From contig JAFTAP010000081.1 in assembly GCA_017455525.1 (NCBI GenBank), positions 1 to 64,000 of the forward strand: a stretch of DNA of 64,000 nt. The letters are read 5' to 3'. Position 1 is the stretch's first letter. Each line of letters begins with the position of its first letter. Positions 43,741-62,462 of the stretch are shown piece after piece. Under the pieces are notes generated by a model. The model was not told where the DNA came from, did no database searches, and saw only the letters and a program-made list of their open reading frames with translations. This DNA is from Lachnospiraceae bacterium. Its GTDB lineage: Bacteria > Bacillota > Clostridia > Lachnospirales > Lachnospiraceae. The translations under genes were made by a program, and so were the position numbers.

Positions 43741-43792
43741 ACCATATCTCCTCTATAAAAGTGGTTTTTCGTTCGTTTCTTTCGTCATTTCT

Positions 43793-44140: not shown

Positions 44141-44184
44141 CAATATCCTGAATTAAGCCTAAAATTTCTATTTTACGTCGAAAA

Positions 44185-44202: not shown

Positions 44203-44235
44203 GTGTTATTCCATAGAGAATAGTATCGTTACCAT

Positions 44236-44480: not shown

Positions 44481-44526
44481 TTTGCCAAAACAGAAAGGAG
44501 GAACGGGATTCACCCCGTACATCACA

Positions 44527-46354: not shown

Positions 46355-46522
46355 CTGAATTCCTTAGTACCATGGCTATGGGTGCGACCGCAAGCATATG
46401 CAATTGTATGACAAACTAGGACGTATTCATAGCCTTTTACCTCATTTGTTTGCATTCATTTTTCTATGCCACTTTTATATCTGACTTACAGACACGCCTT
46501 AGTGTCTATTTGGCTCCCTACG

Positions 46523-47287: not shown

Positions 47288-47446
47288 TTGTCGCTTTCCT
47301 CCTTATACAAAAATACTTTATTAATTACATCAATCTCTTTTTCTGGCTGTCTGAGCAATGTTTATTCTTTTTCCATCATGCGTCTGGCTTTTGGTTTAGT
47401 CGTCTGACATAGCTGGTCTCCAATCGTATTTATTGAACTTTTTTAC

Positions 47447-48109
47447 TTATTCGAAGAAAATAAAGCTATAATCCCCTGTATAACCCCACTCCCTATACAA
47501 CCATTCCCACTCATCAACCGCATAGTAGCTTGCGCAGGTAAGCTGCCAGTAGAGCATATTCATCTCTTCCCTGTCGTTTCGGTAGCTCTCTACCATGATG
47601 TAGCTGTCGCCCTTGCTGACCCTCTCTATCTCCTGTACGGCTTTTTTCAGGTCGTAGACCCTTAAGTTGTGGAGCGTTGTAAGCGATATGACAAGATCAA
47701 AGCTATTATCTTCAAATGGGAGTTCCTGAGCTGTACCCTTTACCAGCCTGTCCCTTATCTCCTCTTTCGCGTGTTCCAAAGCATAATCGGATATGTCCAG
47801 CCCCGTCACCTCAATCCTAGGAACGGCCTGTGTAAACTCATACAGCAGATGTGCCATGCCACAGCCAACGTCCAGTATCTTCATTCCGGATTTCAGCTTA
47901 TAATGTTCCGCCATCTTCTCTGCTACTTTACGCCACCTACCGTCGTATCGGTAGCCTCCGTAGCCGTACTTCCTGTCGCCGTCCCAGTAGTCATACCCGT
48001 ACTGCTTTGCGATGATGGCGCACTCGGACTTGTCATCGGATGTCACCCTTCCGATGTAGTCCCTCTTAGTCGCCTTATGAAGTTCCGATACGAAGTCTAT
48101 ATATGCCAT
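47447..48109 (-). CDS. Class I SAM-dependent methyltransferase
   Basis: 220 residues. MKILDVGCGMAHLLYEFTQAVPRIEVTGLDISDYALEHA (near 72-110), AQELPFEDNSFDLVISLTTLHNL and VQEIERVSKGDSYIMVESYRND are classical motifs I-III of Methyltransf_11. It follows the transketolase pair and may methylate a heptose- or ketose-derived sugar. 159 bases without a feature separate it from the TylF-like gene. Confidence 0.85.
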   Translation of the reverse strand: MAYIDFVSELHKATKRDYIGRVTSDDKSECAIIAKQYGYDYWDGDRKYGYGGYRYDGRWRKVAEKMAEHYKLKSGMKILDVGCGMAHLLYEFTQAVPRIEVTGLDISDYALEHAKEEIRDRLVKGTAQELPFEDNSFDLVISLTTLHNLRVYDLKKAVQEIERVSKGDSYIMVESYRNDREEMNMLYWQLTCASYYAVDEWEWLYREWGYTGDYSFIFFE

Positions 48110-48130
48110 TGTATTCCTCTATTTCCATAT

Positions 48131-49045
48131 CTATTCGAGCAATTCCCTTATTGATTTTTCTATATTCTCTTTTCCAATATTGTTAGAATCTTTCACTTGG
48201 CTATAACTTCCATATCCATGGGAGAAATCGTGCAGCCCCAACCTTTTGAATTTAACGCCCTTTCCATGTTCTGCAATAACCTCAGCTACCGCACTGCCAA
48301 CACCGCCGATTACATTATGGTCTTCTATCGTTAAAATACGACCTATCTCATCAACAGCTTTTTTTACCGTGAGTTCGTCAAACGGTTTCAATGTATGACA
48401 ATTCACCACACGGCACTTAATTCCTTCATTGACCAGTTCATCAACAACATCAATAACATCCCTCAAAATGCTTCCTACAGAAAAGATTGCTATATCCGAT
48501 CCCTCCCTGAGAATCACCGATTTCCCAATCTCAAATCTGTAGTCTTCATCATATATCTCCTGCTCTCCATTCGTTCCCACTCGAAAGTAAACCGGACCTC
48601 TATATTCATATATAGCATGAGTTGCCTTATATACTTCTACAGGACTACCCGGGCATACAACCACAAGATTGGGCAATGACCTCAATCCGCCCAAATCCTC
48701 TGTCGTATGGTGCGTAGGACCCAATGCGGCATAGGTTTGCCCAGCTCCTGTACCTACTATTTTTACATTCTGTTTCTGTAAACAAATATCATTTCGAATA
48801 AACTCATAAGACCGGTATGCTAAAAAAGCGCCTATTGTGTATGCAAAAGGTATCTTTCCACAGCTTGCCATGCCAGCAGCCATACCCAGCATATTCGCTT
48901 CTGATATTCCTAAATTTAAATATTGATTCGGAAAATCCTCCCTGTATTTATCATATACAATAGCACCGTTATCCGAAATCAGGGCATATACATTCTTATC
49001 TTTACTCGCCAGTTCATGCAAAGCTCTCAAATACGAATTTCTCAT
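48131..49045 (-). CDS. Transketolase, C-terminal subunit
   Basis: 304 residues. DNGAIVYDKYREDFPNQYLNLGISEANMLGMAAGMASCGKIPFAYTIGAFLAYRSYEFI is the pyrimidine-binding domain of transketolase/DXS with the conserved Glu of GISEAN. LGPTHHTTEDLGGLRSLPNLVVVCPG and the C-terminal EDHNVIGGVGSAVAEVI domain follow. Paired by ATGA with the N-terminal subunit. In this operon it probably supplies sedoheptulose 7-phosphate for the heptose branch, or transfers a two-carbon unit to a sugar. Confidence 0.9.
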   Translation of the reverse strand: MRNSYLRALHELASKDKNVYALISDNGAIVYDKYREDFPNQYLNLGISEANMLGMAAGMASCGKIPFAYTIGAFLAYRSYEFIRNDICLQKQNVKIVGTGAGQTYAALGPTHHTTEDLGGLRSLPNLVVVCPGSPVEVYKATHAIYEYRGPVYFRVGTNGEQEIYDEDYRFEIGKSVILREGSDIAIFSVGSILRDVIDVVDELVNEGIKCRVVNCHTLKPFDELTVKKAVDEIGRILTIEDHNVIGGVGSAVAEVIAEHGKGVKFKRLGLHDFSHGYGSYSQVKDSNNIGKENIEKSIRELLE

Positions 49046-49860
49046 TGCAAATCCTCCTCTTCCAGTTCCAACTCTTTCATAAGGATGGGGAGTTCGTCTT
49101 TATTCGGCATCCTGTAGTGCCAAATGGGCGTGTTTTCCATAAAGGACACTCCTTTGCCCTTTACAGTATGCGCAATAATCAATGTTGGCATTCCGGATTT
49201 TCTCATTAAAAGAGCTTCTTTAATCTGCCTGTAATCATGTCCGTCTATCTCCAATACATTCCAACCGAACGCTTTCCACTTATCAGCCATTGGCTGCATT
49301 CGAACAATTTTTTCCAATTCATCCATCGCTTGAAGTTTGTTGTGATCCACCACCACCGTCAAATTATCCAGTTCCAAAGTCGGAGCTGATAAAGCTCCCT
49401 CCCATATGGAGCCCTCCTGACATTCCCCGTCTCCCAAAACAACATATACATGCGAAGCCTTCTTATCACTCTTCAGCGAGTATGCCACACCAATGCCAAA
49501 TGATAATCCATGGCCTAATGCTCCCGTTGAAGCCTCTACGCCAGGAACATCATATAATCTCGGATGTCCGCCAAGCATAGAGCCGGGCTTTCCAACTATT
49601 TTTAATTCGTCTTTAGGGAAAAAACCGCTCAAAGCAAGAACTGAATACAAGGCATAGCATGCATGCCCCTTGCTCAGAATAAATCGATCCCGTTCGTCCC
49701 ATTGCGGATTGCTGGCATCATAACGAAGAACATCACCAAAATACAATACACTTATTATGTCCGCCATTGAAAACGCTGCACCTAGATGTCCACCGCCTGC
49801 ATGATATGCAATTTTGAATATCTCTTTTCTGACCTCTTTAGCCTTATCTTTTATTTCCAT
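49042..49860 (-). CDS. Transketolase, N-terminal (thiamine-diphosphate) subunit
   Basis: 272 residues. YHAGGGHLGAAFSMADIISVLYF, RFILSKGHACYALYSVLAL, TGALGHGLSFGIGVAYS and VLGDGECQEGSIWEGALSA...VVDHNKLQAMD are the TPP-binding motifs (GDG-x25-N). It pairs with the C-terminal subunit gene, which it overlaps by 4 bases. Split transketolases are often found in secondary sugar clusters. The 5' neighbour is a SPASM gene 14 bases away. Confidence 0.92.
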   Translation of the reverse strand: MEIKDKAKEVRKEIFKIAYHAGGGHLGAAFSMADIISVLYFGDVLRYDASNPQWDERDRFILSKGHACYALYSVLALSGFFPKDELKIVGKPGSMLGGHPRLYDVPGVEASTGALGHGLSFGIGVAYSLKSDKKASHVYVVLGDGECQEGSIWEGALSAPTLELDNLTVVVDHNKLQAMDELEKIVRMQPMADKWKAFGWNVLEIDGHDYRQIKEALLMRKSGMPTLIIAHTVKGKGVSFMENTPIWHYRMPNKDELPILMKELELEEEDLQ

Positions 49861-49874
49861 TATAAGGATTACCT

Positions 49875-50945
49875 CTAAATAAAGTTAATGTGGTTCATGT
49901 CCATATGAATAAAGGAGTTCAGTAATTCGTTTCTGCTGTCATATACACAATGCTGATTGCATATTTTTTTTGCCTCAAATGCCTTGAACAATCTCTCCGT
50001 ATTACCTGATGTCCATAAATCCTTGAATGTCTGGTTTTCAATGCTTCCCACACATCCATCTGACAGATAAGCCTTATCATGGCAATAATATACCTTCTGA
50101 TTCGCAGCTATTACACAAACAAACTCCTTAATCGGACACTCACTATACTGTCGTTCAAAAATAACACTGTCATTAAAATCTCCGGTATATAAATCAATAA
50201 TACGGAAATGTTCATCCGTAAGCTCATTTTGCAAATCATTTAAATCAGAAGTAACCTGTTTGCGAAATTTTTCATGATATCCGAAAGTATCATTTGTGCA
50301 CAACGGGGCATATTTAACATGGTTTACTCCCAACTCTTTCATCAAATATGCCATTTCTTTTACTTGCTTATGATTATCCTTTGTAACCACCATGTTGATA
50401 CCAAATTCGCAATTCTTGTTCTTCATCTTTGCAAATTCTCTGATATTCTCGCAAAGAGCAATGAAGCTTCCTTTTTTTATTCCCCTTACCTCGCAATACT
50501 GTTCATCGTTGACGGATTCTATAGATATTCGTACCCATTTACTGCTTGCAAGGAGCTCCGCCTTTCTACCCTTTAGCAAGCTGCCGTTTGTAATAATAGA
50601 TAAGTCTATTCCCGCATCAAGAACCGCCTGCATTGTATCCTCAATATATGGATACAATAGCGGTTCTCCGCCACCGCTGAACGTGACTGCTTTTACGCCA
50701 AGTTCCTTCATGCCAGCAACTGTCTCAAGCATTTTTTCCCTGGGAATCTCATCATTAGGATTGTATTCATCCAAATCCAAATATGCATTTCTGTAATGAC
50801 AATAATTACAGTTGTGATTACATTTGTTTGTCGGCTTTACACGGATATATACCGGATTGCACCTTTCGCCATTTAATAGATGCTCAAGCACTTCTGGATG
50901 ATGGAAAATCTTTAACTGGCTATATGGAGTCTCATTCCTGTTCAT
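49875..50945 (-). CDS. SPASM radical SAM enzyme with H-x-NFI C-terminus (copy 1)
   Basis: 356 residues from ATG 50945 (GAGG 5 bases upstream; a GTG 6 bases earlier is possible). YIRVKPTNKCNHNCNYCHYRNAY carries CxxxCxxC near residue 43. AVTFSGGGEPLLYPYIEDTM is the SAM motif. Two later Cys groups (FVCVIAANQKVYYCHDKAYLSDGCVG and KICNQHC) fit a SPASM region. The protein ends MNHINFI. The next gene encodes a paralogue ending VEHVNFI. Located between HldE and transketolase genes, so a heptose or heptose-precursor substrate is inferred. Confidence 0.87.
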   Translation of the reverse strand: MNRNETPYSQLKIFHHPEVLEHLLNGERCNPVYIRVKPTNKCNHNCNYCHYRNAYLDLDEYNPNDEIPREKMLETVAGMKELGVKAVTFSGGGEPLLYPYIEDTMQAVLDAGIDLSIITNGSLLKGRKAELLASSKWVRISIESVNDEQYCEVRGIKKGSFIALCENIREFAKMKNKNCEFGINMVVTKDNHKQVKEMAYLMKELGVNHVKYAPLCTNDTFGYHEKFRKQVTSDLNDLQNELTDEHFRIIDLYTGDFNDSVIFERQYSECPIKEFVCVIAANQKVYYCHDKAYLSDGCVGSIENQTFKDLWTSGNTERLFKAFEAKKICNQHCVYDSRNELLNSFIHMDMNHINFI

Positions 50946-50952
50946 ACTCACC

Positions 50953-52014
50953 TCAAATAAAATTTACATGTTCTACGGGGTACACTATCTTGTCCAAGTA
51001 TTTATTAATTTCGTCAAGCCTGCAGTTCTTCCTGCAGTTCTTTTTGATAAATTCGCCCTTAAATATTTCCCTTATTTTCGTTGCCCTGTCAGATTCCCAT
51101 ATAACGTCAAAATCATTGTCGTTGATATTCCCATAATTGAATTCGTCCTTTCCCATGAACACGATGCACGGAAAGACTTCACCTGCCGAATCCATATATG
51201 TCATGAAGTGCAGCCCACAGCAATCGTGGTAAGGCTTCTCCATTCCAAGGTTCTCTATGGATTTCGACCTGAAATATATCTTGAAGTCATCTGTCTCATA
51301 CTTCTTCAGCCGCTCGCCTATTTTCTCGCTCTCGGAATAGTCAACCTGCAGCTTGGCCTTGCTCTGAGGATGCTGTGAAAATGGCTTCACCGTAAAGTAA
51401 TCAAAACCGATATCTCTTACTATCCTTGCTAATTCCTCGACTTCATTCTTATTCTCCGGCAATAGCAACAACTGCGCTCCAAGCGTGACGCTTAGTCCCT
51501 TCTCACGCTTGACATCTGCAGCGCTTCTCATGTTATCTATCGCCTTGTCAAAGTCCCCGATATGGCATTGATGGATCTTGCTGTACGTCTCTGGCGTTGC
51601 CCCGGCTATGCTATACCTGACCCATGTAAGCGACTTAAGGCATCCTTCGAGCTTGTCTTTTGTAAACAGTACGCCGTTGGTCGAAACTGCGGCATCTATT
51701 CCGTTCTTCTTTGTCTCGTTAATAATCCTGACCACTTCAGGGTGAGCCATCGGATCACCTTCCCCTGCGTAGATGATGCTTTTCAAGCCTTTCTTTCCAA
51801 GAATCTCAAGATTGCGGCATAGCACGTCTGCGTCAATCATCCTTGGCTTGTATTCCATGTAGTCTACCGCACAGAATATGCACCTGTGATTACAGGCTCC
51901 GCTTATCCCTACTTCCATCTCTATAGGGTATATGAGATTTCCTGCAATAAAATCTGCTACCCTCTGCGGATGATACAATAATTTGTGAGAGTCTATTCTA
52001 AAGTCCTCTGCCAT
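50953..52014 (-). CDS. SPASM radical SAM enzyme with H-x-NFI C-terminus (copy 2)
   Basis: 353 residues. MEVGISGACNHRCIFCAVDYMEYKP has CxxxCxxC near residue 40. SIIYAGEGDPMAHPEVV replaces the usual GGEP with GEGDP. HDCCGLHFMTYMDSAGEVFPCIVFMG and KKNCRKNC give extra cluster cysteines. It ends VEHVNFI. It is adjacent to copy 1, but identity appears moderate, so the two probably act in succession or as partners rather than as a recent duplication. The upstream gene is hldE. Confidence 0.86.
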   Translation of the reverse strand: MAEDFRIDSHKLLYHPQRVADFIAGNLIYPIEMEVGISGACNHRCIFCAVDYMEYKPRMIDADVLCRNLEILGKKGLKSIIYAGEGDPMAHPEVVRIINETKKNGIDAAVSTNGVLFTKDKLEGCLKSLTWVRYSIAGATPETYSKIHQCHIGDFDKAIDNMRSAADVKREKGLSVTLGAQLLLLPENKNEVEELARIVRDIGFDYFTVKPFSQHPQSKAKLQVDYSESEKIGERLKKYETDDFKIYFRSKSIENLGMEKPYHDCCGLHFMTYMDSAGEVFPCIVFMGKDEFNYGNINDNDFDVIWESDRATKIREIFKGEFIKKNCRKNCRLDEINKYLDKIVYPVEHVNFI

Positions 52015-52030
52015 TTGGTTTTCCTATTCC

Positions 52031-53608
52031 CTATACATTCAGAACAGTCTTAATAAACTTAAGAAAATCCTTCTTCTTCACGCTACTCTTGTTGCCGACC
52101 ACATGAGTCTTCATCGCCCCTGCGGCATTCGACAGCAGGGTCGCTATATCGGCTGGAATGTTCTCTACGGCACACAGCGAGGATATTGCGAAGAAAGCAT
52201 CCCCAGCGCCGACTGTGTCAGTAACCCTTAATGTCAATGCAGGTGCTTTTACGGTCTCATCATTATTCGTGCAAATCGCCCCCTCCGCGCCAACCGTCAA
52301 CCAGCCAATCTGTGCCTTAAGTGCCTCCTTGAGTTTTCTAAGCTGTGCGTTGTAATCCTCTGAATATTCACGGAATGCCAGCTTCAGTTCTTTCTCATCC
52401 AGCGCAAAAGCATCCGCCCTGCCGTACTTCGTGATAACGTTCATTCCGTAATTGGACGAGTTGGTCTGGCAGTTTACCGATAAATACTTACTGTTCTTCT
52501 CTATAATGTCTATCGCTTCCCTGTCTATCAGTCCATGCCCGTAATCACACACGATTACCAAGTCATAATCCGCTATCATCTTTTCAAGCGCATCATGGAA
52601 TTTCTTGTAGTCAGTCTCCCTGATATTCTCTTCCTCGTTCAGGAAATTAACGGAGAAGAGCTTCTCATTATCCTTTCTCTGCGGATGAATCTTTAGATAA
52701 CGTCTCTTCACCGGCGTTACGAAGTTCTTGTCCGTAAGGATGTGCAGCTTCATGCCCTTCGGCATTCGTTTCTCTATCCTATCCCGAAGTCCTTCTTCCA
52801 CACCCATCATAGTAAGGAACTCCGCATTAGGAACAAAATTAGCCACATGCCTGGCAATAGCAAGAGCGCCACCTAAATACTTCTCATCACTCTGAAATCT
52901 TGTGGATATCACAGTGTCCTTACTGGTAAGCCCCTGTGGACGACAGAATATGTACTCATCAATAATGATGTCTCCGACAACGAGAACCTTCAGATTCTCA
53001 AAATCATCCACCATTTTCTCTATCTGGTTAAATAGGTCATCGCCGTATTTTGCAAGCAGGCTTCTTGAAAACTCCGGCACACCCTCCGGCAGAGATCCGA
53101 AATAATTGTTGAGGAGCTTGCTTGAGGAATATACCTCACCCTGAGTATAGCGAACTGTTCCTCCAAACTTCTCGACTTCTGCTATCTCATCGGCAACCTG
53201 CCCGGTCACACCATCCGTTCCACTTTCAAATTCCTGACCTTTAACATAAATGTCAGGCTGTATATGGCGAATATTTGTGATTGCTGTTGGCTCATTACTG
53301 AGCATGACGTAGTCCACAAACTCGATGCTTGCCAGGAATCTTGTGCGCTGGCGGTCATCAAAGTATGGTCTATCTGGTCCCTTGTTTACATATGGAGCAC
53401 TTGTTACCGATACGACTACTATGTCACCATAGTTCTTCGCTTCCTGTAAATGCTCTATGTGTCCGTAGTGCAGCAGGTCGTACACACCGTGGCACATCAC
53501 AATGGTCTTGTCATCAGCTTTAATTTTCTCACGGAGCTTTTCAAACTCTTCTCCGGTTATAATCTTTGATTCCAATGTTTTAGTCTCTTTTCCTGCTCCT
53601 ATGATCAA
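52031..53608 (-). CDS. hldE: HldE-like bifunctional heptose adenylyltransferase/kinase, domains in reversed order
   Basis: 525 residues from TTG 53608; a later start such as TTG 53575 is possible. Residues about 18-165 are a nucleotidyltransferase (CHGVYDLLHYGHIEHLQEAK with HxGH; GPDRPYFDDRQR; KGQEFESGTDGVTGQ). Residues about 200-525 are a PfkB-type kinase (VLVVGDIIIDEYI; KYLGGALAIARHVANF; TDTVGAGDAFFAISSL). E. coli HldE has kinase first and adenylyltransferase second; here the order is swapped. It should phosphorylate D-glycero-D-manno-heptose 7-phosphate at C1 and activate the 1-phosphate with ATP, giving ADP-heptose. GmhA and GmhB lie next door. Confidence 0.9.
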   Translation of the reverse strand: MIIGAGKETKTLESKIITGEEFEKLREKIKADDKTIVMCHGVYDLLHYGHIEHLQEAKNYGDIVVVSVTSAPYVNKGPDRPYFDDRQRTRFLASIEFVDYVMLSNEPTAITNIRHIQPDIYVKGQEFESGTDGVTGQVADEIAEVEKFGGTVRYTQGEVYSSSKLLNNYFGSLPEGVPEFSRSLLAKYGDDLFNQIEKMVDDFENLKVLVVGDIIIDEYIFCRPQGLTSKDTVISTRFQSDEKYLGGALAIARHVANFVPNAEFLTMMGVEEGLRDRIEKRMPKGMKLHILTDKNFVTPVKRRYLKIHPQRKDNEKLFSVNFLNEEENIRETDYKKFHDALEKMIADYDLVIVCDYGHGLIDREAIDIIEKNSKYLSVNCQTNSSNYGMNVITKYGRADAFALDEKELKLAFREYSEDYNAQLRKLKEALKAQIGWLTVGAEGAICTNNDETVKAPALTLRVTDTVGAGDAFFAISSLCAVENIPADIATLLSNAAGAMKTHVVGNKSSVKKKDFLKFIKTVLNV

Positions 53609-53636
53609 CAGAAGTATAATCTATAGTTTCAAATCT

Positions 53637-54605
53637 CTACTCTTCTTCTCTCAACAACCTCTCCGCAAGGTTTGGCAACGTTTCTGCGTGGTCTCCGCAG
53701 AAATAATAGCTTTTTCCACCATCCGCCACTGTACGGCTCATAATAGTCTTCCAAGGTCTGAAATAATAATACGGATCTGATTTATCCGGTTCCTTTCTCA
53801 CATCTGCTGTGATTGGCTTTATATCGAATACAGCTGTCGTGATATCCGTTATATCCTCACCGTGCTGCTTCTTGACATTCCTCGCCATGGCAAGCGCTTT
53901 CAGGTACACCTCCGGACCAGTGACAGCAGAGCCAAAGTTCAGGAATACTCCACGCTGAAGTTTTTCAATACTATTTGTATAAATCAGGAAATCTCTGTAA
54001 CTTGCTTCTCCAGCAGCAGCTGGGTTAAAGTTCGGATGCTCGTGCACAATGTCATTACCAATACCGATATGCACAGTACATGGCACTTGCAGATGATAAC
54101 CCATTGCCAGAACACTCTGCTCTCTGTTCGTGAAGTTGTTCTCCCATATGTACTTTCCTACAGCTTCACCAAATCCAAGTCCTTCCTTAGCACCCTCATT
54201 CACAGCATCATTGAGGTACCCTGTCTCTTTCCAGAGTCCAAACTGACCCTCTGAGATGTATTTCGCCACACTTTCACAGGTCTTCCCAATCATTGCAAAT
54301 TCAAAATCATGAATCGAACCTGCACCGTTAGTAGCAAAGTGCGTGATCAATCCACGCTTCATTAGCTCTATCATGTACAACGAATTGCCCTTACGGATGA
54401 CATGAGCGCCATACATCAAGAGAACTGTCGCATCATGTTCTCTTGCCACCTTTATTCTTTCTGCCAGTGATTCGTAATCAGAATTATCAGATAAAGTGGT
54501 TAGCGACCCCACAGGGATGTTTGTAGCATTCTCGTCTATATCATGAATTCTATCTGACAGCGGCTTTATCAGGAGCCTACTTCGATCAAACTGTTTGAAT
54601 GGCAT
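53637..54605 (-). CDS. Deoxyhypusine-synthase-like protein of the heptose cluster
   Basis: 322 residues. The block TVLLMYGAHVIRKGNSLYMIELMKRGLITHFATNGAGSIHDFEFAMIG (about 75-125) and later VPCTVHIGIGNDIVHEHP, FLNFGSAVTGPEVYLKAL suggest the NAD-binding deoxyhypusine-synthase fold. The usual eIF5A-modifying context is absent. It lies between hldE and gmhB, so a role in heptose metabolism or a heptose-linked side group is inferred. Family assignment is from pattern memory and is moderate. The first codons overlap the gmhB stop. Confidence 0.6.
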   Translation of the reverse strand: MPFKQFDRSRLLIKPLSDRIHDIDENATNIPVGSLTTLSDNSDYESLAERIKVAREHDATVLLMYGAHVIRKGNSLYMIELMKRGLITHFATNGAGSIHDFEFAMIGKTCESVAKYISEGQFGLWKETGYLNDAVNEGAKEGLGFGEAVGKYIWENNFTNREQSVLAMGYHLQVPCTVHIGIGNDIVHEHPNFNPAAAGEASYRDFLIYTNSIEKLQRGVFLNFGSAVTGPEVYLKALAMARNVKKQHGEDITDITTAVFDIKPITADVRKEPDKSDPYYYFRPWKTIMSRTVADGGKSYYFCGDHAETLPNLAERLLREEE

Positions 54606-55161
54606 CTTTCGGCACCTCTGTAGTTCTCTTATTTCTCAACACTTCAACCACATCCCTTAAATCATTCATTACATAATCAGGTCTAATATCTTCTTCGAGT
54701 CTTGCAGTACCATAGCCTGATTCAAGTAATATTGTTTGTATTCCGGCATTCTGCCCGGTTTTTATATCTGTAGCACGATCTCCTACCATAAGAGATTCAG
54801 ACATATCTATATCATAATCTTTGCATGCCTGCTGGATCATTCCGATTCCGGGCTTCCGCAAGTTGCTGTCTCGTCTGTACTTCTCAACCACACCATCCTT
54901 ATAATAAGGACAGTAGTATATGGCATCAACATCAGTTTCTGACTTGATATGGTCATGTATAATGTTCAGTTCCTCTTCTGTCAGATATCCTCTTGCCACA
55001 CCACTCTGGTTACTAATGATAATCACATAGTAGCCTAGGCCATGAAGCTCTTTAATACAGTCTCGGACATATGGGAAAATATGTAACCCTTCGAGCCTTG
55101 TTATGAAGCCAATCTCCTCGTTAATCACACCATCCCTATCCAAGAATACTGCTGGTTTCAC
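54586..55161 (-). CDS. gmhB: GmhB-like heptose bisphosphate phosphatase (HAD family)
   Basis: 191 residues from GTG 55161, with GGAG 7 bases upstream. AVFLDRDGVINEEIGFI (nucleophile and acid Asp near 9 and 11), VIIISNQSGVARGYLTEEEL, and SLMVGDRATDIKTGQNAGI are the HisB-N/GmhB motifs. The Zn-binding Cys set of GmhB is largely reduced to one Cys (YYCPYYKDG). It should remove the 7-phosphate from heptose 1,7-bisphosphate. Overlapped on both sides by gmhA and the DHS-like gene. Confidence 0.9.
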   Translation of the reverse strand: MKPAVFLDRDGVINEEIGFITRLEGLHIFPYVRDCIKELHGLGYYVIIISNQSGVARGYLTEEELNIIHDHIKSETDVDAIYYCPYYKDGVVEKYRRDSNLRKPGIGMIQQACKDYDIDMSESLMVGDRATDIKTGQNAGIQTILLESGYGTARLEEDIRPDYVMNDLRDVVEVLRNKRTTEVPKDAIQTV

Positions 55162-55742
55162 AGACTGACTCCATCACATTCCATGATGAGATCTACAATT
55201 TCTTGAAGAATCAGATTATGGATGGATTCTACGATTCCGTATTTATGAGATGGTATGTACACCGAGACATCTGATATTCTTCTTGCAGGATTATCATCAC
55301 TAAAACCTGTGAATGAGATAATGCTCATACCCTTCTCCATCGCTACATCGATAGAATTGATTATGTTCTGACTTTTCCCTGAGCTACTGATAGCCACAAG
55401 CAAGTCCCCTTTACCTGCCAAGAAGCTCAAAGGCTTAGAAAAGACATGTTCATATCCATAATCATTTCCCATGCATGTCGTCACAGCATTGTCATACAAA
55501 CTCACTGTGTTCATCCCACCGTTTTTCATGAAATCAGCAGTCATGTGAGAAGCTATTGCTGCACTGCCGCCGTTACCGATGAAGTAAACTTTAGAGCCTG
55601 CTTTCTTCTTTTCGGTGAATATGTCCACAAGGAGTTTAATGCCATCTTCATAATTATATTTAATATCTCCTTTGCTGATTTCTGTCCTCTTCAGAACATC
55701 AATCAATTTTTCTGTATATGCATCCAAATTCTCAATCCTCAT
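55158..55742 (-). CDS. gmhA: Sedoheptulose 7-phosphate isomerase
   Basis: 194 residues, SIS-domain protein. VYFIGNGGSAAIASHMTADFMKNGG and LLVAISSSGKSQNIINSIDVAMEKGMSIISFTGF are the GmhA/SIS phosphosugar-binding motifs, and E near 168 matches the catalytic pattern. It converts sedoheptulose 7-phosphate to D-glycero-D-manno-heptose 7-phosphate, the first step toward ADP-heptose. Its start overlaps the small zinc-ribbon gene. Confidence 0.9.
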   Translation of the reverse strand: MRIENLDAYTEKLIDVLKRTEISKGDIKYNYEDGIKLLVDIFTEKKKAGSKVYFIGNGGSAAIASHMTADFMKNGGMNTVSLYDNAVTTCMGNDYGYEHVFSKPLSFLAGKGDLLVAISSSGKSQNIINSIDVAMEKGMSIISFTGFSDDNPARRISDVSVYIPSHKYGIVESIHNLILQEIVDLIMECDGVSL

Positions 55743-55932
55743 TCAGTTTATTCTCATAACATCTGGGACACATCTCCGGAACATCTGGCTGATCTTTCTT
55801 CCTGTACATGGAACCACAGTTTTCACACTTCTCCATTTCACTACGTTCAAAATGCTCTCCACACGATATGCAAACATATCCATTTGAATCTTCTTCTAAA
55901 GTCATTCTTCCACATTCTGGACATTCATTCAT
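55732..55932 (-). CDS. Small zinc-ribbon protein
   Basis: 66 residues with eight cysteines in four CxxC pairs: CPECG, CISCGEHF, CENCGSMY, CPRCYEN. This suggests two zinc ribbons. Its 3' end overlaps the gmhA start by 11 bases, so it is translationally coupled to the heptose genes. A rubredoxin-like or RNA/DNA-binding role is possible. The function is unknown. Confidence 0.65.
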   Translation of the reverse strand: MNECPECGRMTLEEDSNGYVCISCGEHFERSEMEKCENCGSMYRKKDQPDVPEMCPRCYENKLNED

Positions 55933-55983
55933 GCTATTTACCTCCCCTGGATTTCACAGTTATCCACACGCTCACATTCTACT

Positions 55984-56482
55984 CTACTCATTCTCCAAAA
56001 ACTTCTCCCACAAGCTCTTGCTCCCTGTGTCGCACCCAACATTCTCTCCATTCTCCCCGACACCGTATATAAGACACCCTGTAACTTCGATGTCCATGTC
56101 AGAACCATTTAGCTCACTATACACTTCTGCACTTGCCAGGCAGTGTCCCTTTCTCACATCAAAAAAATGGTGAAGAGAGCTTTTTGCTAAACATATATCA
56201 AATGAATTATCCTCAAAAGTGATGTCTTCTGCAAAACCTCTTCTAAATTGCGAGCCATGTTTTTTTGTTTTGTTCAGAAAAAGTGATATCTGGGTCTATA
56301 CCCCCACTTGTATTGAAATGTCCTTTATAATAATCAAACATAAACCCGTTCCCACACCCCACGTCTAATATCGACTCTCCATACGCCTCCAATATTTTTA
56401 CAATCCAATCTCCTAAGTTGGCATCACATAACCAACTATAATTCTCATATTTCTCTGCCCTTTCTTTAGAAAACAAATTCAT
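55984..56482 (-). pseudogene. SAM methyltransferase remnant, frameshifted at an A7 run
   Basis: ATG 56482 opens NLFSKERAEKYENYSWLCDAN and SILDVGCGNGFMFDYYKGHF (SAM-binding motif). It stops soon after an A7 run (T7 on +, 56260-56266). Deleting one A lets the frame continue as GSQFRRGFAEDITFEDNSFDICLAKSSLHHFFD, the next methyltransferase motif, and on to TAG at 55984-55986 (166 codons). The last 60 residues depart from the family, and CLIYGVGENGE within them recalls a YGAG module start. I read it as a decayed or fused gene. Confidence 0.6.
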
Positions 56483-56681
56483 TTTCTCTCAAATATACCT
56501 CCAATTGTAATTACATGTTTAATAAATGACTGTGCGATAAAATATGTATGTACATGAAAAAATGCAATTATTTACAAACATATCCCACTTTACTATTATG
56601 ACTATGTTTTTTATAATTGAATTACTTTCAGCTTTTCGCCTGTAGTATATTTCCTTTATTGCATCATTTATCGGAACGCAG

Positions 56682-57344
56682 CTAGAACTTCAACTGCCTT
56701 ATCCTCTTCAGGGTTTCCTTGTATGGGCGGTTCTTGCCGAATAGGAGGGTCGTGCCAAGGACGAAACCCTTCACTCCCATGGGGGCGTACTCCTTTATCT
56801 TGTCAGCCCCACAAGCCCCGTCCCAGTAAATGTCAAAACCCATCTGATCCTTCATCTTCAAAAGGTCGAGGTACTTGTCCTTTATGTACGGTAGGAACAT
56901 CTGCCCCGCATTGCCCGGGTTCACTGACATCACGAGAACCTTGCTCACAATGCGGAGCAGCATCTTTACATCCTCTGCGCTGGTTCCTGGATTAATCGCT
57001 ATTCCGGGGGTTACGCCTTCATCTATTATCTTCTGTATAGTAGTTGACGGATGGTATTCCGCCTCAGGGTGGATGTATATCGTGTCACCTTCCTTCAGTT
57101 CCCGTGCGAAGAGCCTTACCGTATTATTAGGGTGCTCTATCATGAGATGCACGTCGAGAGGCTTATCAGTCGCCGAGCGGATGTACTTCATATCGTTAAG
57201 GGACATTGCGAAGTTGGGAACATACCTACCATCCATTATATCTATGTGGAAAGAGTCTATGCCGCCCTCATCGAGCTCTCTAACTTCTCTTTCAAGGTTC
57301 CCGTAATCGGCGCACATCATTGAGGCCATTAGTTCAAAATCCAT
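56682..57344 (-). CDS. rpe: Ribulose-phosphate 3-epimerase
   Basis: 220 residues from ATG 57344 (GGAG 8 bases upstream; TTG 57362 is less likely). MASMMCADYGNLEREVREL, SFHIDIMDGRYVPNFAMS, DVHLMIEHP, IYIHPEAEYH, GIAINPGTSAEDV and VLVMSVNPGNAGQMFLP are the Rpe motifs. The usual GFGGQ is replaced by GNAGQ, which may mark an allied ketose-phosphate epimerase. With transketolase it would feed pentose phosphates into sedoheptulose 7-phosphate for the heptose branch. 199 AT-rich bases without a gene lie between it and the methyltransferase remnant. Confidence 0.87.
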   Translation of the reverse strand: MDFELMASMMCADYGNLEREVRELDEGGIDSFHIDIMDGRYVPNFAMSLNDMKYIRSATDKPLDVHLMIEHPNNTVRLFARELKEGDTIYIHPEAEYHPSTTIQKIIDEGVTPGIAINPGTSAEDVKMLLRIVSKVLVMSVNPGNAGQMFLPYIKDKYLDLLKMKDQMGFDIYWDGACGADKIKEYAPMGVKGFVLGTTLLFGKNRPYKETLKRIRQLKF

Positions 57345-57358
57345 TATCCCTTCTCCTC

Positions 57359-58714
57359 TCAACTTGCCTCCTCTATTATCTCCGCATTCTGTATCATTAT
57401 CGGCTTGCCCGTCTTCTTGTAAAGCTCCACCACCGAGCTGCCGTCGCCGTAGTATGCGTCGCTCAGCACTATCGCCCTGTCAAGCTCTGCACTGTCGTCG
57501 TATATGCCCCATCCCTCAGATCTATATCTCTCGACTATCGCCGAGTACCTCTCCCAGAGGTGCGGCCTCATGGACGTGATCGTCGCCTGTATCAGCGGGT
57601 GCGGTCTCCAGAGCAGTGCCACGTCGTCCTTATTCTCCCTGAATATCCGCAGCACGTCCTCTATCTTATCGAGCATCTTCCCGTCGTTGTCCAGGAGTGC
57701 CTGCACCCCCGTGTTGTAGAATATGATTTTCTTCATGCTGTCATCAGGCTTGCGGATTATTTTCTCCCAGACTTCCGGGACTTCCACGTCTTCCTTCTTA
57801 GTGCCGGCTACCTTGTCGAACTTCGGTGAGCCCTCGCCGGATATCTTCTTCTCCCAGTAGCCCCTGGTCTGCTCGCCTGCATAGTCAGTCATGACCTTAA
57901 CGTAGACCTTTCGCATATTCTCCGACTGGACTATGACCTTATCCGCATTTATGACCGCAGCCACAGTTATGAAATGGCTGATTTCCTCTATGCTCTCCTC
58001 ATTGTCGGGATCAGGGTCTGCCAGAACGAAATACGGTATGTATATAAGCTCATCAGTATAGTTCTTCAGATTCTTTGAATAAAAGAACGGGTGAACACTG
58101 GTGACGAAATTACCCTCGTCGTAAGGATTGTGTATATATATCCTGTCGGGATGCCTACCCTCAAAGTCATATAGACTGTAATGTGTGACAGGAACGTATT
58201 CCGGATACTCCGCTCCCTCATAATGCTCTTCCCTGACACTACCATCGGGATTCCTGTCAAAGTAAGGTATCGGGATGACGTATGCATCACAGTCAGGATC
58301 TGCCTCCGCCTTCTTCCACACAGACTCCAGGCTGTCCCACATGGATGCCTTGTATGGGAGAAATACAGTCTCTAATGTCTCATGGATGTCTCCTGCTATG
58401 CTGCCCCTTATTGCATTGAGGAACTTGAGCAGCAGCTTCGATGTCTTGTCTGCATTTGCAGAGCCTTCGTTTATCGCCTGTGATATCTCATAGAGCCTCT
58501 CGCAGTATGCCTCAAGAATCCCAACGGTCTTTGTTCCCTCACCCTCGCTTGCCTCGATGGTCTCTCCCATCGTGACCGCACATTCCTGGCACTGACTTAG
58601 CAAGCCTAATACTGTGTCGGTATTTTTATTCCTAAGCCCATTACCTATCTCCTCATGTGCCTCTTCCAGAGTCGCTGCTAGCTCAAGGAGCATTATTTTA
58701 TAATGTCTTCTCAT
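57359..58714 (-). CDS. CDP-glycerol/ribitol glycerophosphotransferase-like protein (TagF-like)
   Basis: 451 residues. A helical N-terminus (about 1-110) precedes a GT-B-type region: IPIPYFDRNPDGS, RIYIHNPYDEGNFVTSVHPFFYSKNL, LIYIPYFVLADP, then IIFYNTGVQALL, DVALLWRPHPL, GWGIYDDSAELDRAIVLSDAYYGDGSSVVELYKKTGKPIMI. The D-A-Y-Y-G-D-G-S-S and W-R-P-H-P motifs match CDP-polyol polymerases. It would use a CDP-polyol, consistent with the TarI/TarJ-like pair at the far end of the operon. No signal peptide. Confidence 0.78.
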   Translation of the reverse strand: MRRHYKIMLLELAATLEEAHEEIGNGLRNKNTDTVLGLLSQCQECAVTMGETIEASEGEGTKTVGILEAYCERLYEISQAINEGSANADKTSKLLLKFLNAIRGSIAGDIHETLETVFLPYKASMWDSLESVWKKAEADPDCDAYVIPIPYFDRNPDGSVREEHYEGAEYPEYVPVTHYSLYDFEGRHPDRIYIHNPYDEGNFVTSVHPFFYSKNLKNYTDELIYIPYFVLADPDPDNEESIEEISHFITVAAVINADKVIVQSENMRKVYVKVMTDYAGEQTRGYWEKKISGEGSPKFDKVAGTKKEDVEVPEVWEKIIRKPDDSMKKIIFYNTGVQALLDNDGKMLDKIEDVLRIFRENKDDVALLWRPHPLIQATITSMRPHLWERYSAIVERYRSEGWGIYDDSAELDRAIVLSDAYYGDGSSVVELYKKTGKPIMIQNAEIIEEAS

Positions 58715-58739
58715 TTTGAAATATACAGATAAAAATCAC

Positions 58740-59930
58740 CTATGCCACATCCGTCAGCCTGCGTAGGTGCGAGTTTTGGATTGCCATCTCGACCTCAGAA
58801 CGGCTCATGCCAGCCTTAAGCACGGCGTCGCTCGTATACATCTCCTGTATTATTATTTTTTCAAGCTCGGAGCATATCGTGTTACCTTTAGATTTTGCTT
58901 CAGTAAAGTCATTCTTCATCTGCACCCAGTCTCTGCTCTCAAATTTCTTCTCACCATTCTCAAACTCTGTCTTTAGAATCCTGGCATCACCTAATAGTGT
59001 CTCCCATGCGTTGTGAATCACGGAAAGATTTTGCTTCATTTCTTCCGATTTCTCACTGAGATCCTTATATGCCTCTGCCTGCTCCTGAAGAACCGCCACC
59101 GTGCTGTTAAGATCTCCGACCACCTTCCATGTCTCTGTTATCTTCGAATTAAGTGTCTTAAGCTTTATGGAGTCGAGCGCAAGGCAAGCTGACGAAAGTG
59201 CTATCACAGGCCCCGTAAGGAGCCATGAAAAGAGTCCCATCGGAAATGCTAGTACCGTCACAGCCATACCTATGCCGAAGAACACAGTGTCCCCCATACC
59301 AGCCTCTATCATCTCCTCTGTAAGGCTCCTGATCTCTTTCTTCACCTCATCAATCAAGCTCTTGAGCCTCTTCACCTCATTCTCGTCCACACCCTTATCC
59401 TTTGTCATAAGCTCGGATATTTCGCCTAGAGCCTGTGCCTGCTCTGTTATCTTATCAACATATTTATTGAGAGAATCTTCCATATCAACAGTCCTCTTAA
59501 GCACATTCTCTATGACCGGCTCTAGTGTATCAATGAAGCCCTTAGCTGCGTTCCTCGCATTCTCATTGCCGGGATCACCTATAAGGATGTCCGCTTCCTT
59601 TATTATCCCGCTGAAGCTGTCGATTATTTCCCCCATCTTGCTCTTCATAATGGATGGATAGGAGCAGAGATTCACATACACCGTATCCTTGAATATGTTT
59701 GCAGAAGCCTTTGCCGTAACAAGCTTTTTCTCATAATCAGCATAGTGCTGTGGCTTCACAGCAAAATCCGGTAGATTTCTCGCGGTCACTGATAGCATAA
59801 ACTCACTGATTTCCTCAACGCTTTTCAGATAGTTCTCATCCGCTTCCCCTACGGTGCGTGTTACCGAGGGACTTGCCACAACCCCCCAGTCGCTGTCTAT
59901 GAAGTTCCTCATGAATGTCATTTCTCCCAT
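58740..59930 (-). CDS. HBL/XaxA-like alpha-helical pore-forming-type protein
   Basis: 396 residues from ATG 59930, which has AAAGGAG 7 bases upstream; the frame extends upstream to 60074 without support. Long amphipathic helices surround one hydrophobic hairpin, TVFFGIGMAVTVLAFPMGLFSWLLTGPVIALSSACLAL (about residues 228-265). The SVIHNAWETLLGDARIL segment near 320 recalls HBL/NHE and xenorhabdolysin A-type toxins of the ClyA superfamily. No signal peptide is visible. It is the first structural gene after loaP. A role as a toxin, or as a membrane-remodelling partner of glycan export, is inferred from fold only. Confidence 0.6.
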   Translation of the reverse strand: MGEMTFMRNFIDSDWGVVASPSVTRTVGEADENYLKSVEEISEFMLSVTARNLPDFAVKPQHYADYEKKLVTAKASANIFKDTVYVNLCSYPSIMKSKMGEIIDSFSGIIKEADILIGDPGNENARNAAKGFIDTLEPVIENVLKRTVDMEDSLNKYVDKITEQAQALGEISELMTKDKGVDENEVKRLKSLIDEVKKEIRSLTEEMIEAGMGDTVFFGIGMAVTVLAFPMGLFSWLLTGPVIALSSACLALDSIKLKTLNSKITETWKVVGDLNSTVAVLQEQAEAYKDLSEKSEEMKQNLSVIHNAWETLLGDARILKTEFENGEKKFESRDWVQMKNDFTEAKSKGNTICSELEKIIIQEMYTSDAVLKAGMSRSEVEMAIQNSHLRRLTDVA

Positions 59931-60245
59931 TTGTCCGCTCCTTTCTTTTACGGTGCCGAAAAAGGGCATCTGCATGCCTTCCCTTAACCGAACCACGGTA
60001 TACGCTGCTTCTTTTCTATGGAAATAAACTCCTGGAATTGACCCTCTTCTTTTTTGCTCTTGTTTACTCTGCACCGTTATGACATAGCTTCGCCGGAATG
60101 ACCCACTCGGTCACCCTGGTAAAAAAGCTATGTCCGCCGCAACCCATACTGCGTTTAAGAACGTCACATATGTTCCGCGGTTTCTTGAAAGTCTAGATTA
60201 TATCTTCTGACAGCCTGCTGCCGTCCATGCTTTTGCTGGCTGTTG
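59931..60245 (-). promoter_or_regulatory. Operon leader between loaP and first structural gene
   Basis: 315 bases without a supported gene. They contain two strong RNA structures, listed separately, and the ribosome site of the toxin-like gene. No U-tract follows either hairpin in the operon direction, so neither looks like an intrinsic terminator. LoaP proteins of Bacilli bind a specific leader hairpin to load on RNA polymerase, and this leader is the natural place for such a site. Confidence 0.55.
60081..60134 (-). promoter_or_regulatory. Leader RNA stem-loop with perfect 10-bp basal stem (candidate LoaP site)
   Basis: GACATAGCTT (complement of 60125-60134) pairs perfectly with AAGCTATGTC (complement of 60081-60090). 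Between them, TGACC-GAGTG-GGTCA can form an inner hairpin. No poly-U follows. It is placed in the leader just after loaP and before the operon's first gene. Confidence 0.55.
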
Positions 60246-60249
60246 TCAG
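60207..60249 (-). promoter_or_regulatory. RNA hairpin at the end of loaP
   Basis: CTGACA-(ACA)-GCC at the loaP stop pairs with GGCTGTCAG 35 bases later, with a 3-base bulge and inner GC pairs. It overlaps the loaP stop codon (60246-60248). It could be a second LoaP-responsive or processing hairpin. No U-run follows. Confidence 0.45.
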
Positions 60250-60749
60250 ATTTTTTTCACGATCCCGACGCCAAGCCTTACATCCATGTCCCGCCCGAAG
60301 AGCCTGATGGTTATCAGGGCTTCCCTGTTGTGCCTGTATAGTTTCCTGATCCTGCCCGCAAGACCTTTCATCGGCCCGGTCTCGATCACTATCTCATCAC
60401 CGTCCATAAAGCCCTCGGAATACTTCACAACATGCTCCTCGCCTCCCAGACGCATCAGGAACTCCTCCTCTTCCGGCTGTATCGGAACGATATCACCATC
60501 CACAGTCATGAGCTTCAAAGTTCTGAACCTGCCATGGAGCGACAGATTGAACTCCTCTGCCCTCTCCGTCACGACGAAGAGGTATCCGGGAAACAGGTTC
60601 TTCCTCTCAGGCTTCCATACGCCTCCAAGCTTGAACATCTTCTCGTTCTCCATGATGAAGACATCCTCGTCCGGCTCCGCTACGTCCTTCCTGATATCTG
60701 CTACTGCCTTCCTCTCCTTCCCCTTCAGGGTCTGTATCACATACCACAT
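60246..60749 (-). CDS. loaP: LoaP/UpxY-type NusG paralogue (processive antiterminator)
   Basis: 167 residues. MWYVIQTLKGKERKAVADI opens the NGN domain; KNLFPGYLFVVTE and LHGRFRTLKLMTVDGDIVPI continue it. The KOW domain reads DGDEIVIETGPMKGLAGRIRKLYRHNREALITIRLFGRDMDVRLGVGIVKKI. Specialised NusG proteins of this length placed at the head of long operons in Clostridia and Bacilli are LoaP. They ride with RNA polymerase and suppress termination over tens of kb. It is the first gene of the glycan operon and lies only about 60 bases from an invertible promoter. Its ribosome site is weak. Confidence 0.88.
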   Translation of the reverse strand: MWYVIQTLKGKERKAVADIRKDVAEPDEDVFIMENEKMFKLGGVWKPERKNLFPGYLFVVTERAEEFNLSLHGRFRTLKLMTVDGDIVPIQPEEEEFLMRLGGEEHVVKYSEGFMDGDEIVIETGPMKGLAGRIRKLYRHNREALITIRLFGRDMDVRLGVGIVKKI

Positions 60750-60808: not shown

Positions 60809-60831
60809 TTCGCAAAGTGCTGACTTTGCGA
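60809..60831 (+). repeat. Left inverted recombination site
   Basis: 23 bp identical, in inverted orientation, to 62335-62357. Internally it has dyad arms CGCAAAGT and ACTTTGCG around an asymmetric GCTG core, the form of a tyrosine-recombinase crossover site. Flanking GGAT/ATCC extends the hairpin potential in the loaP leader. Confidence 0.85.
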
Positions 60832-60858
60832 ATATCCACGGCCAAGCAACCATCACTT

Positions 60859-60887
60859 ATTTTAACCTACTTACAAATGCTTTGCAA
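60859..60887 (-). promoter_or_regulatory. Sigma-70-type promoter inside invertible segment, reading toward loaP
   Basis: On the minus strand TTGCAA (-35, 60882-60887) is followed after exactly 17 bases by TAAAAT (-10, 60859-60864). Transcription would start near 60852, cross the left repeat and enter loaP about 100 bases later. No other promoter of comparable quality is seen between the right-hand terminator and loaP. Confidence 0.65.
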
Positions 60888-61144
60888 GTAATGATATACG
60901 TCAACGACGCCTGAATCAACAGCCTGACTAAAGGACATATATCACAAGTTTTCGCCGGCAAGCAGCCCGCTCATACTACAGCGTATCTATTATATCGGCG
61001 TATGATTCCGATTTCTTTAGTGTTACAAGCAAATTTATTACAAAAAAGTTCCAGGCCGTATGGGAAATAGCCCTGACGAGGATAGTTTCAAGGGCTATAA
61101 GCCGTCAAAAAATGCGTCAGCAAACAACAGAAAGGAGGAATGCT

Positions 61145-62263
61145 ATGTCAAGAAAGGGAGAGAACATCTATCGGAGGAAGGATGGCCGCTGGGAGGCAAG
61201 GTATATTGTGGGGCACGCTGGGAACGGAAAGACCATGTTCAGGTCTGTTTATGCCCCGACTTACACAGAAGCCAGGGAAAAGAGGAAAGAAGCCCTTCGG
61301 GAGTACGAGGATGCAAAGGAAGAGACCGCAGCGAAGACCGGGACCGTGGCTGCCATAGGGGAAGCCTGGCTGGCGGATGAGTCCTACAAATGGAAGGAAT
61401 CCACAAGATGCCGCTATCGTGAGAAATTCGGACTCTATATCATCCCGGAGTACGGGGAACGCAGCCTGGCGGGCATCACCACTGAGGAGGCAGAGAGCTA
61501 TATCGTAAAGCTCCAGAGCGAGGGCCTGCCCGGCAGGAAACCTGTCGGAACAAGTACGGCAAGCCTCGTGCTGACCGTGATCAAGGACATCGTGAAATAT
61601 GCCCGCAAGCACGGATTTCAGACAGGACTTGTGCCGGAATGCATAAGCGTAAAGCGTGACAGAAGCGAGATCACCGTATTCTCAGAGCAGGAAGAGCGCC
61701 GATTGGTGCAAATCCTAAAGACAGATACGGACGAGACCGGTGCCGGTGTGCTGACCTGCCTGTTCACAGGGATCAGGATCGGCGAGCTGTGTGCCTTAAA
61801 CTGCGACGACATCGACCTGGAGCAGTGCGTACTCCATGTGAGACGGACTATGCAGAGGCTGCCCGTTGAGAACGGTGCCACAAAGACTGCGGTGCGGATA
61901 GATACGCCAAAGTCGGACTACTCTGTCAGGGACATTCCCTTTAATAAAGGGCTGGCTGACATCATCCGTCCATTCCATAAGCCCGGGACATTCCTGCTGA
62001 CAGGGGATAAGGCGAGATTCGTGGAGCCGCGGACCATGGAGGTCCGCTTTGCGAGGCTCCTCGATGAGTGCGGGATCGGGCAGGTCAACTTCCATGTGAC
62101 GAGGCACACCTATGCGACACGCTGCATCGAGCGCGGAATGGATGCCAAGACGCTGTCAGAGCTTCTGGGACACGCCAGCGTGTCCACCACGCTGGACAGA
62201 TATGTCCATCTGTCAATGAGGCATAAGGCAGAAAGTGTGCGACTTATCGAGGATCTGTTGTGA
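61145..62263 (+). CDS. Tyrosine recombinase (Tn916-type integrase fold)
   Basis: 372 residues from ATG 61145, which has AAAGGAGG 6 bases upstream. The N-terminal arm-binding region contains YRRKDGRWEARYIVGHAG. A SAM-like core-binding domain follows, then the catalytic domain: TGIRIGELCALNCDDI (Arg I), TPKSDYSVRDIPF (Lys), HVTRHTYATRC (His-x-x-Arg), LGHASVSTTLDRYVHL (His and Tyr nucleophile). All catalytic residues are present, so it should be active. It is enclosed by perfect 23-bp inverted repeats and points away from loaP. It is most likely the inverting enzyme of this segment, not an element integrase. Confidence 0.9.
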   Translation: MSRKGENIYRRKDGRWEARYIVGHAGNGKTMFRSVYAPTYTEAREKRKEALREYEDAKEETAAKTGTVAAIGEAWLADESYKWKESTRCRYREKFGLYIIPEYGERSLAGITTEEAESYIVKLQSEGLPGRKPVGTSTASLVLTVIKDIVKYARKHGFQTGLVPECISVKRDRSEITVFSEQEERRLVQILKTDTDETGAGVLTCLFTGIRIGELCALNCDDIDLEQCVLHVRRTMQRLPVENGATKTAVRIDTPKSDYSVRDIPFNKGLADIIRPFHKPGTFLLTGDKARFVEPRTMEVRFARLLDECGIGQVNFHVTRHTYATRCIERGMDAKTLSELLGHASVSTTLDRYVHLSMRHKAESVRLIEDLL

Positions 62264-62334
62264 ATTTTTTAGCCGTCACAAAAAATGGTCAGCTTTCAGA
62301 GAGCCTTGTGATAATGGGTGACTTTAATACGACA

Positions 62335-62357
62335 TCGCAAAGTCAGCACTTTGCGAA
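62335..62357 (-). repeat. Right inverted recombination site
   Basis: Exact reverse complement of 60809-60831 over 23 bp, with the core reading CAGC instead of GCTG. It starts 71 bases after the recombinase stop. The inverted orientation predicts inversion rather than excision. Confidence 0.85.
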
Positions 62358-62425: not shown

Positions 62426-62462
62426 CAGGGCGTTGCCTTTATGCAGTGCCCTGTTTCATTTT
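62426..62462 (+). terminator. Intrinsic terminator reading rightward
   Basis: CAGGGCGTTGC-CTTTAT-GCAGTGCCCTG forms an 11-bp stem with two G-T wobbles. TTTCATTTT follows. It would stop transcripts leaving the recombinase segment to the right, including those from the loaP promoter in its inverted position. Confidence 0.65.

Follow-up and report, generated by a model that had tools for sequence, protein, structure and literature searches.

A self-contained tyrosine recombinase cassette predicted to invert a promoter upstream of a loaP antiterminator gene

Hin of Salmonella is a serine recombinase whose gene lies, together with an outward-reading promoter, inside the segment that it inverts, switching fljBA ON or OFF. 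PMC5903667 names Hin as an example of a recombinase inside its segment, Mpi of B. fragilis as a serine-type master recombinase of scattered regions, and RecV of C. difficile as an enzyme that serves several switches in its genome; for the C. difficile flagellar switch, PMC7446863 reports a Rho-linked mode. According to PMC11892184, UpxY genes can be regulated by Bacteroidota invertons, and inverton group 139/invertase group 35 (Jin et al. 2025) holds 33 invertons, 32 from Clostridia and nearly all near a tyrosine-type recombinase or integrase, with a shift of orientation shown for an example from Clostridium sp. D5. In Eggerthella lenta, according to a preprint (PMC13174815), DNA inversion puts capsule clusters, loaP among them, into a different regulatory context. 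LoaP of B. velezensis binds an RNA hairpin in the leaders of its targets and promotes terminator readthrough, and a hairpin with a UNCG tetraloop is described in those leaders (PMC12691694).

Here we describe a locus that combines elements of these systems. The window, meaning the whole stretch of DNA analysed, is the first 64 kb of an 80-kb contig (C34) from a genome of 2.72 Mb in 110 contigs, and holds the following features:

60809..62357, no strand: predicted invertible segment, 1,549 bp including both repeats, with an inverted counterpart at C7:18700-20245
60809..60831, plus strand: left inverted repeat and predicted crossover site, by sequence comparison
62335..62357, minus strand: right inverted repeat and predicted crossover site, by sequence comparison
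60859..60887, minus strand: sigma-70-like promoter TTGCAA-17-TAAAAT, by scan, reading out via the left repeat toward loaP
61145..62263, plus strand: tyrosine recombinase of 372 aa, by Pfam profile, alignment and AlphaFold2 model
60246..60749, minus strand: loaP antiterminator gene, by the NCBIfam model antiterm_LoaP (NF033641), over its cut-off
60075..60140, minus strand: hairpin in the leader between loaP and the first cluster gene, by folding (z -4.7) and covariation
573..60074, minus strand: mostly glycan gene cluster, the likely LoaP target, by a profile scan of ORFs
62426..62453, plus strand: terminator-like hairpin outside the right repeat, by scan and folding, with a counterpart on the same flank in C7

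We consider it highly probable that the recombinase inverts the segment in which it is encoded, so that a likely promoter faces either loaP (ON, as in the window) or a terminator-like flank (OFF, as in a second copy on contig C7). Sequence comparison supports a past inversion of the segment well; activity of the promoter, activity of the recombinase and switching of the glycan cluster are inferred.

As the original prediction had it, perfect 23-bp inverted repeats flank the recombinase gene, and each has the dyad-plus-asymmetric-core form of a crossover site. The two arms are 100% complementary over their 23 nt and, at up to three mismatches, the 23-mer occurs only at these two sites in the 64 kb, with none expected from 100 shuffles, which rules out repeats by chance. 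Each arm is a dyad with a short asymmetric centre, TTCGCAAAGT-GCTG-ACTTTGCGA. The stretch outside the right repeat, ATTTTTATTT, makes that repeat terminator-like in the rightward reading. No tandem repeats were found in 60700-62500 and no Rfam match up to E 0.5 across 58500-64000, and all segment ORFs of at least 100 aa besides the recombinase gene either overlap that gene or enter from loaP. By k-mer count, GGTCA occurs 36 times forward and 5 times in reverse around the recombinase gene on its 5' side, and 36 versus 3 times on its 3' side; direct repeats of GCCGTCA are hinted at by the same kind of count, in a region that is partly coding. These direct repeats are perhaps arm-type binding sites. 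A ParE-type toxin gene (PF05016; 62586-62921, minus strand) adjoins the switch, beside a possible antitoxin ORF at about 62914-63120 on the same strand.

The recombinase ORF spans 61112-62263, with a likely start at the ATG at 61145, preceded by AAGGAGG. The protein matches the Pfam family Phage_integrase (PF00589) with an E-value of 5.6e-23, and residues R211, K256, H317, R320, H343 and Y353 (numbered from 61145), which we take to be the catalytic residues of a tyrosine recombinase, are invariant in 13 aligned sequences. The profile match and the R-K-H-R-H-Y residues together place the protein in this family, with the complete catalytic set that had been predicted for it. Its AlphaFold2 model (mean pLDDT 86, pTM 0.68) finds its best PDB match in the Tn1549 integrase, with an E-value of 8e-12 and a TM-score of 0.61 over the query. 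An additional N-terminal part of three strands and a helix presumably resembles the arm-binding domain of Tn916-type integrases. The encoded enzyme would be expected to exchange strands at the repeats, within the repeat core.

Searched with the window region, the genome yielded a second place, C7:18530-20387. Here the segment between the repeats is 94% identical to that of the window and reversed relative to its flanks, whereas the order is unchanged for loaP with the leader behind it (94% over 695 nt) and for the outer flank (89-90%). The recombinase-5' end with the promoter points to the loaP side in the window and, in C7, to the outer flank with the terminator-like hairpin; the opposite orientation that follows from the original prediction is present in the same genome. 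When the two copies are compared, alignment of the outer flank begins at the base next to the repeat and that of the loaP-side flank at bases 102 and 40, the stretch from repeat to loaP being about 60 nt longer in C7. The repeat cores read GCTG in C34 and GTGT in C7, matching within each contig. Two facts rule out an assembly chimera of C34 and C7: both repeats of a contig have the core peculiar to that contig, and the two cassettes are 6% divergent. The unlike cores would prevent recombination between the two switches on their shared chromosome. The genome holds no further place with the crossover-site pattern beyond C34 and C7. The two modules precede different clusters; in C7, the next gene after loaP appears, from a reading of its translation, cytidylyltransferase/oxidoreductase-like.

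Related genomes likewise carry an orthologous locus in opposite orientations, another consequence of the predicted inversion. Butyrivibrio sp. NC3005 (L121) and genome G023 (L081) have orthologous loaP-cassette loci with cassettes 79% identical, and the flank on the loaP side in one genome aligns with the opposite cassette end in the other. Between the two loci, alignment of the loaP-side flank begins immediately beside the repeat. Neither genome has perfect repeats, with the loaP-side half-site TTCGCAAAT and the terminator-side half-site TTCGTAAAA in both genomes. These half-sites stay with their flanks while the inside flips, which places the exchange inside the core CTATTATTT. Genome G181 (L089) has an equal layout in the OFF orientation, with an additional ORF inside the segment. 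This ORF (L089:10780-11860), which we take to be Rpn/transposase-31-like, has the recombinase 3' end on either side of it as a direct repeat, a sign of insertion within the switch. Among 19 locus pairs in which cassette and flank both align, 6 have swapped flanks, 13 have them on the same side and none is mixed; the pairs are non-independent, swapped-looking pairs with non-aligning cassettes are excluded, and one of the six (L152/L164) rests on 81 nt of flank. In genome G001, contigs C3 and C30 are identical over 1,862 bases, and the end of C3 falls in the right repeat, at the core; this could, as a weak hint, reflect mixed orientations in the reads. Among the marks of an inverton, the promoter-bearing segment between inverted repeats is recognised here by its sequence, and both orientations are found in the duplicated module and in orthologues rather than at one locus in one population.

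At a threshold of E <= 1e-50, relatives of the recombinase occur in 77 of 397 family genomes, the better matches of which were carried on. A contig database gave 566 confirmed relatives, of which the best 80 were used, with Lachnospiraceae, Oscillospiraceae and Selenomonadaceae among them. The first set comprised 42 loci (the window, L009 and L081-L120), 29 with a repeat pair that scored at least 14.5 and was accepted by eye. In the second set, the best 80 of the 566, relatives proved to carry repeats as well: 63 have a pair scoring at least 13 (that of L175 likely by chance), and none was found in the other 17, some of which lie at contig ends. The two sets, minus seven loci identical over 600 nt of cassette and with L084 counted as L132, gave 84 loci. 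A CG[CT][AG] (CGYR) half-site is recognisable in 66 of the 84 and not in 18. Of these 66 loci, 57 have the same 8 nt following it in either arm, versus identities in 4 of 2,145 pairs between loci; agreement within a locus is partly built in, as the arms were chosen for matching, and the variation between loci is not. The 66 loci have 49 distinct central 4-mers. In L158, L174 and L180, crossover sites are tandemly duplicated within each arm, and the matching arms extend over 54-73 nt. Self-inverting promoter cassettes of this layout are widespread in Clostridia and rest on the fold of a Tn1549-like integrase.

A rival account is a small transposon- or integron-like mobile element, an integrase between terminal inverted repeats, that had inserted by chance upstream of loaP, with the two copies and the opposite orientations being independent insertions. 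The likeness of the recombinase model to the Tn1549 integrase fits this account, as do the many unrelated genes that relatives adjoin and the occurrence of relatives in 7 phage and 12 plasmid records at 30-41% identity. So does a cassette identical over 600 nt in L103, L146, L148 and L149, from organisms that include Butyricicoccus pullicaecorum, Blautia glucerasea and Agathobaculum massiliense; this identity likely reflects recent horizontal spread. Independent insertion would not, however, be expected to give flanks whose alignment begins immediately beside the repeat (the outer flank between C7 and the window, the loaP-side flank between G023 and L121), or outer half-sites that stay with their flanks in G023 and L121 while the inside flips. 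Moreover, all five members found at 55% or more identity to the window recombinase, the window included, lie directly upstream of loaP. We therefore regard chance insertion as improbable. We judge it similarly improbable that the locus is a frozen relic, flipped in the past and with enzyme or sites now inactive: the evidence for inversion does come from comparisons between copies and species, but the C7 and C34 copies both retain perfect 23-bp repeats and open recombinase frames.

The promoter-like sequence TTGCAA-N17-TAAAAT is present as originally described, and is weak taken singly: a scan of 59900-62700 gave 5 promoter-like sites versus 3.0 expected. Since the window promoter is hardly above chance matches, its support lies in the conservation of its position. 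We counted, at the 84 loci, promoter-like sequences reading outward within 120 nt of a repeat. The recombinase-5' end has one in 65 of the 84 loci and the opposite end in 4, compared with 9.75 of 84 in shuffled sequences. Counts over all other positions and directions are 4, 5, 4, 10 and 4 of 84, those for inward-reading or outside positions ranging from 4 to 10. Of the 65 promoters, 58 have a 17-nt spacer, and the median promoter lies 29 nt from the repeat. The scan found no promoter in 19 loci, L121 among them. Promoters read by hand at loaP-linked loci are TTGCTA-17-TATAAT (G023), TTGCGG-17-TATAAT (L121, under the scan threshold), TTGAAA-17-TAAAAT (G181), TTGTAA-17-TATCAT (G001) and TTGACA-17-TATCAT (G039). 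A hairpin lies near the repeat on the far flank in 6 of 8 loaP-type loci, detected by the terminator scan in the window and C7 and by folding in G023, L121, G181 and G001, with G039 and L156 not folded; the simple scan misses hairpins whose stem absorbs the T-run, and the hairpin of L121 has no T-run. That the segment inverts chiefly to control the recombinase or a far-side gene, with loaP under another promoter, is the least probable account, for although an OFF-orientation recombinase transcript would head toward loaP, the conserved position of the outward promoter and the far-flank hairpins speak against it.

These observations suggest how inversion by the encoded recombinase might control loaP. 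In the ON orientation, transcription would start near 60852, cross the left repeat and enter loaP, and the recombinase gene would be read the opposite way, into the right repeat and the terminator. With the segment OFF, transcription from the promoter would head into the far flank and be halted by a hairpin such as that at 62426-62453. The window promoter is predicted to work, and loaP to be transcribed mainly in the ON orientation. LoaP, perhaps via the leader hairpin 3' of its own gene, would then let RNA polymerase traverse the long glycan cluster. A crude scan, of a kind that missed folded hairpins elsewhere, found no terminator between the recombinase gene and loaP in the OFF orientation; as the recombinase gene reads toward loaP there, the OFF state may leak.

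At least 8 of the 84 loci have a NusG paralogue next to the cassette (window, C7, G023, L121, G181, G001, G039 and L156), a lower bound as some contigs end nearby; two of the eight are ON and six OFF. The idea that an inverting cassette may switch a NusG-type antiterminator is supported at this locus, but across the family such a paralogue is only one of many neighbours. In a tally of 76 outward ORFs of at least 100 aa at 79 loci, matches fell into 103 families in total, with 6 to HTH_3, 5 to Cas12f1-like_TNB, 2 to Bac_transf and 2 to NusG. At L106 (= L155, Drancourtella massiliensis), two NusG paralogues lie beside the recombinase gene, and no repeat was found. Homologues of the window gene at 57359-58714 (56-60% identical) lie about 0.5-1.9 kb outside the cassettes of L126, L090, L193 and L199, which have no loaP, an indication that the tie to glycan clusters may extend beyond LoaP; further homologues occur at L170 (43%) and L093 (36%).

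In five loci, the first gene outside the cassette encodes a TnpB-like protein of about 450 aa (L091:9576-10925, L123:7249-8589, L193:2232-3578, L199:4274-5638 on the minus strand and L093:6754-8079 on the minus strand). The call rests on Cas12f1-like_TNB for L091, L123 and L199 and on alignment for L193 and L093. The zinc-finger cysteines are kept, and none of the five proteins is acidic at the positions that we presume to be those of the three RuvC acidic residues. Judging by these residues, the five may be nuclease-dead, TldR-like regulators heading surface clusters.

The loaP gene scores 131.9 bits against antiterm_LoaP (cut-off 125) and 37 bits against the UpxY model, under its cut-off of 100. 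Directly 3' of it, the leader hairpin folds with a z-score of -4.7 (60062-60150) and aligns in five loci, namely the window, C7 (L009), G023 (L081), L121 and G181 (L089). Across these five, 3 of 13 pairs show changes on both sides and each of three pairs is disrupted in a single sequence; the loop is of GARU type, not UNCG. It is plausible that this hairpin is a recruitment element for this LoaP subgroup, in which case the loaP message would be its own target. The genome holds seven matches to the LoaP model (C7, C31, C34, C37, two in tandem on C51, and C60), of which six are over the cut-off and that on C60, below it, is likely the housekeeping NusG. For the other four over the cut-off (C31, C37 and the two on C51), no repeat pair of at least 13 nt was found in 1.5 kb upstream, a flank too short, as the control locus L049 shows, to take in the far repeat of a cassette of 1.5 kb, so that short switches only are excluded, and the leader hairpin sequence is absent from their leaders. 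Neither feature is therefore general for LoaP, and we reject a rule by which all LoaP genes of the genome are switched.

The glycan operon of about 60 kb that had been predicted downstream of loaP corresponds to 573-60074, which holds mostly glycan genes, but its last ORF (573-1223) encodes a resolvase-type recombinase and is no glycan gene. This interval has 58 minus-strand ORFs of at least 100 aa; the profile scan covered 55, leaving out three that are nested or doubtful, and found 7 matches to Glycos_transf_2, 6 to Radical_SAM and 3 to WcbI. The 6 Radical_SAM matches, with 5 to SPASM, are unusual for a plain polysaccharide locus. The first cluster gene after loaP (58740-60074, minus strand) encodes a 444-aa protein that matches alpha-xenorhabdolysin/MakA models weakly, below their cut-offs.

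If correct, inversion by a resident recombinase would let gut and rumen Clostridia switch entire surface-glycan clusters stochastically, and surface glycans bear on phage and immune recognition. The two copies in opposite states in one genome predict two independent switches, with no cross-talk because their cores differ. More broadly, we lean slightly toward the view that a Tn1549-like integrase lineage has been domesticated in Clostridia and Negativicutes as portable self-inverting promoter cassettes, whose private cores would allow several of them per chromosome, and which at the heads of glycan clusters are coupled to a further layer of regulation, LoaP or, in related clusters, a TnpB-like protein without recognisable nuclease residues. 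Being self-contained and of simple signature, the family can be mined across Clostridia.

Among described systems, Salmonella Hin/fljBA is like the cassette in holding a recombinase gene and an outward promoter inside the segment between inverted sites. It differs in that Hin is a serine (Resolvase-type) recombinase, whereas the window enzyme is an unrelated tyrosine recombinase of Tn1549-like fold and its target an antiterminator gene. The original prediction knew of no case of exactly this architecture; the recombinase-inside layout has its precedent in Hin (PMC5903667). Among the matches listed from the open-licence literature, by titles and abstract starts, we found no description of a LoaP gene behind an invertible promoter, or of an invertible promoter segment in Clostridia that houses its own tyrosine recombinase. 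The C. difficile RecV switches (flagellar, cwpV) share tyrosine-recombinase inversion in a member of the Clostridia but have several switches per enzyme, unlike a cassette with its own recombinase. The Clostridium sp. D5 inverton has about 205 bp between 26-bp repeats, unlike the 1.5-kb window cassette, so its recombinase must lie outside. In E. lenta, PMC13174815 describes megabase inversions at a 16-bp repeat with no promoter cassette, and no recombinase gene detected alongside the breakpoints. The Bacteroides UpxY capsule loci share with the window the order of invertible promoter, NusG paralogue and glycan cluster, and the predicted analogy holds in function but not in UpxY membership: the window has LoaP, and its recombinase lies inside the segment. 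Inversion and antitermination would then amount to the Bacteroides logic reached via different parts. The principle is known; the enzyme class is a different one for a self-contained layout, the target is new and the family is apparently large.
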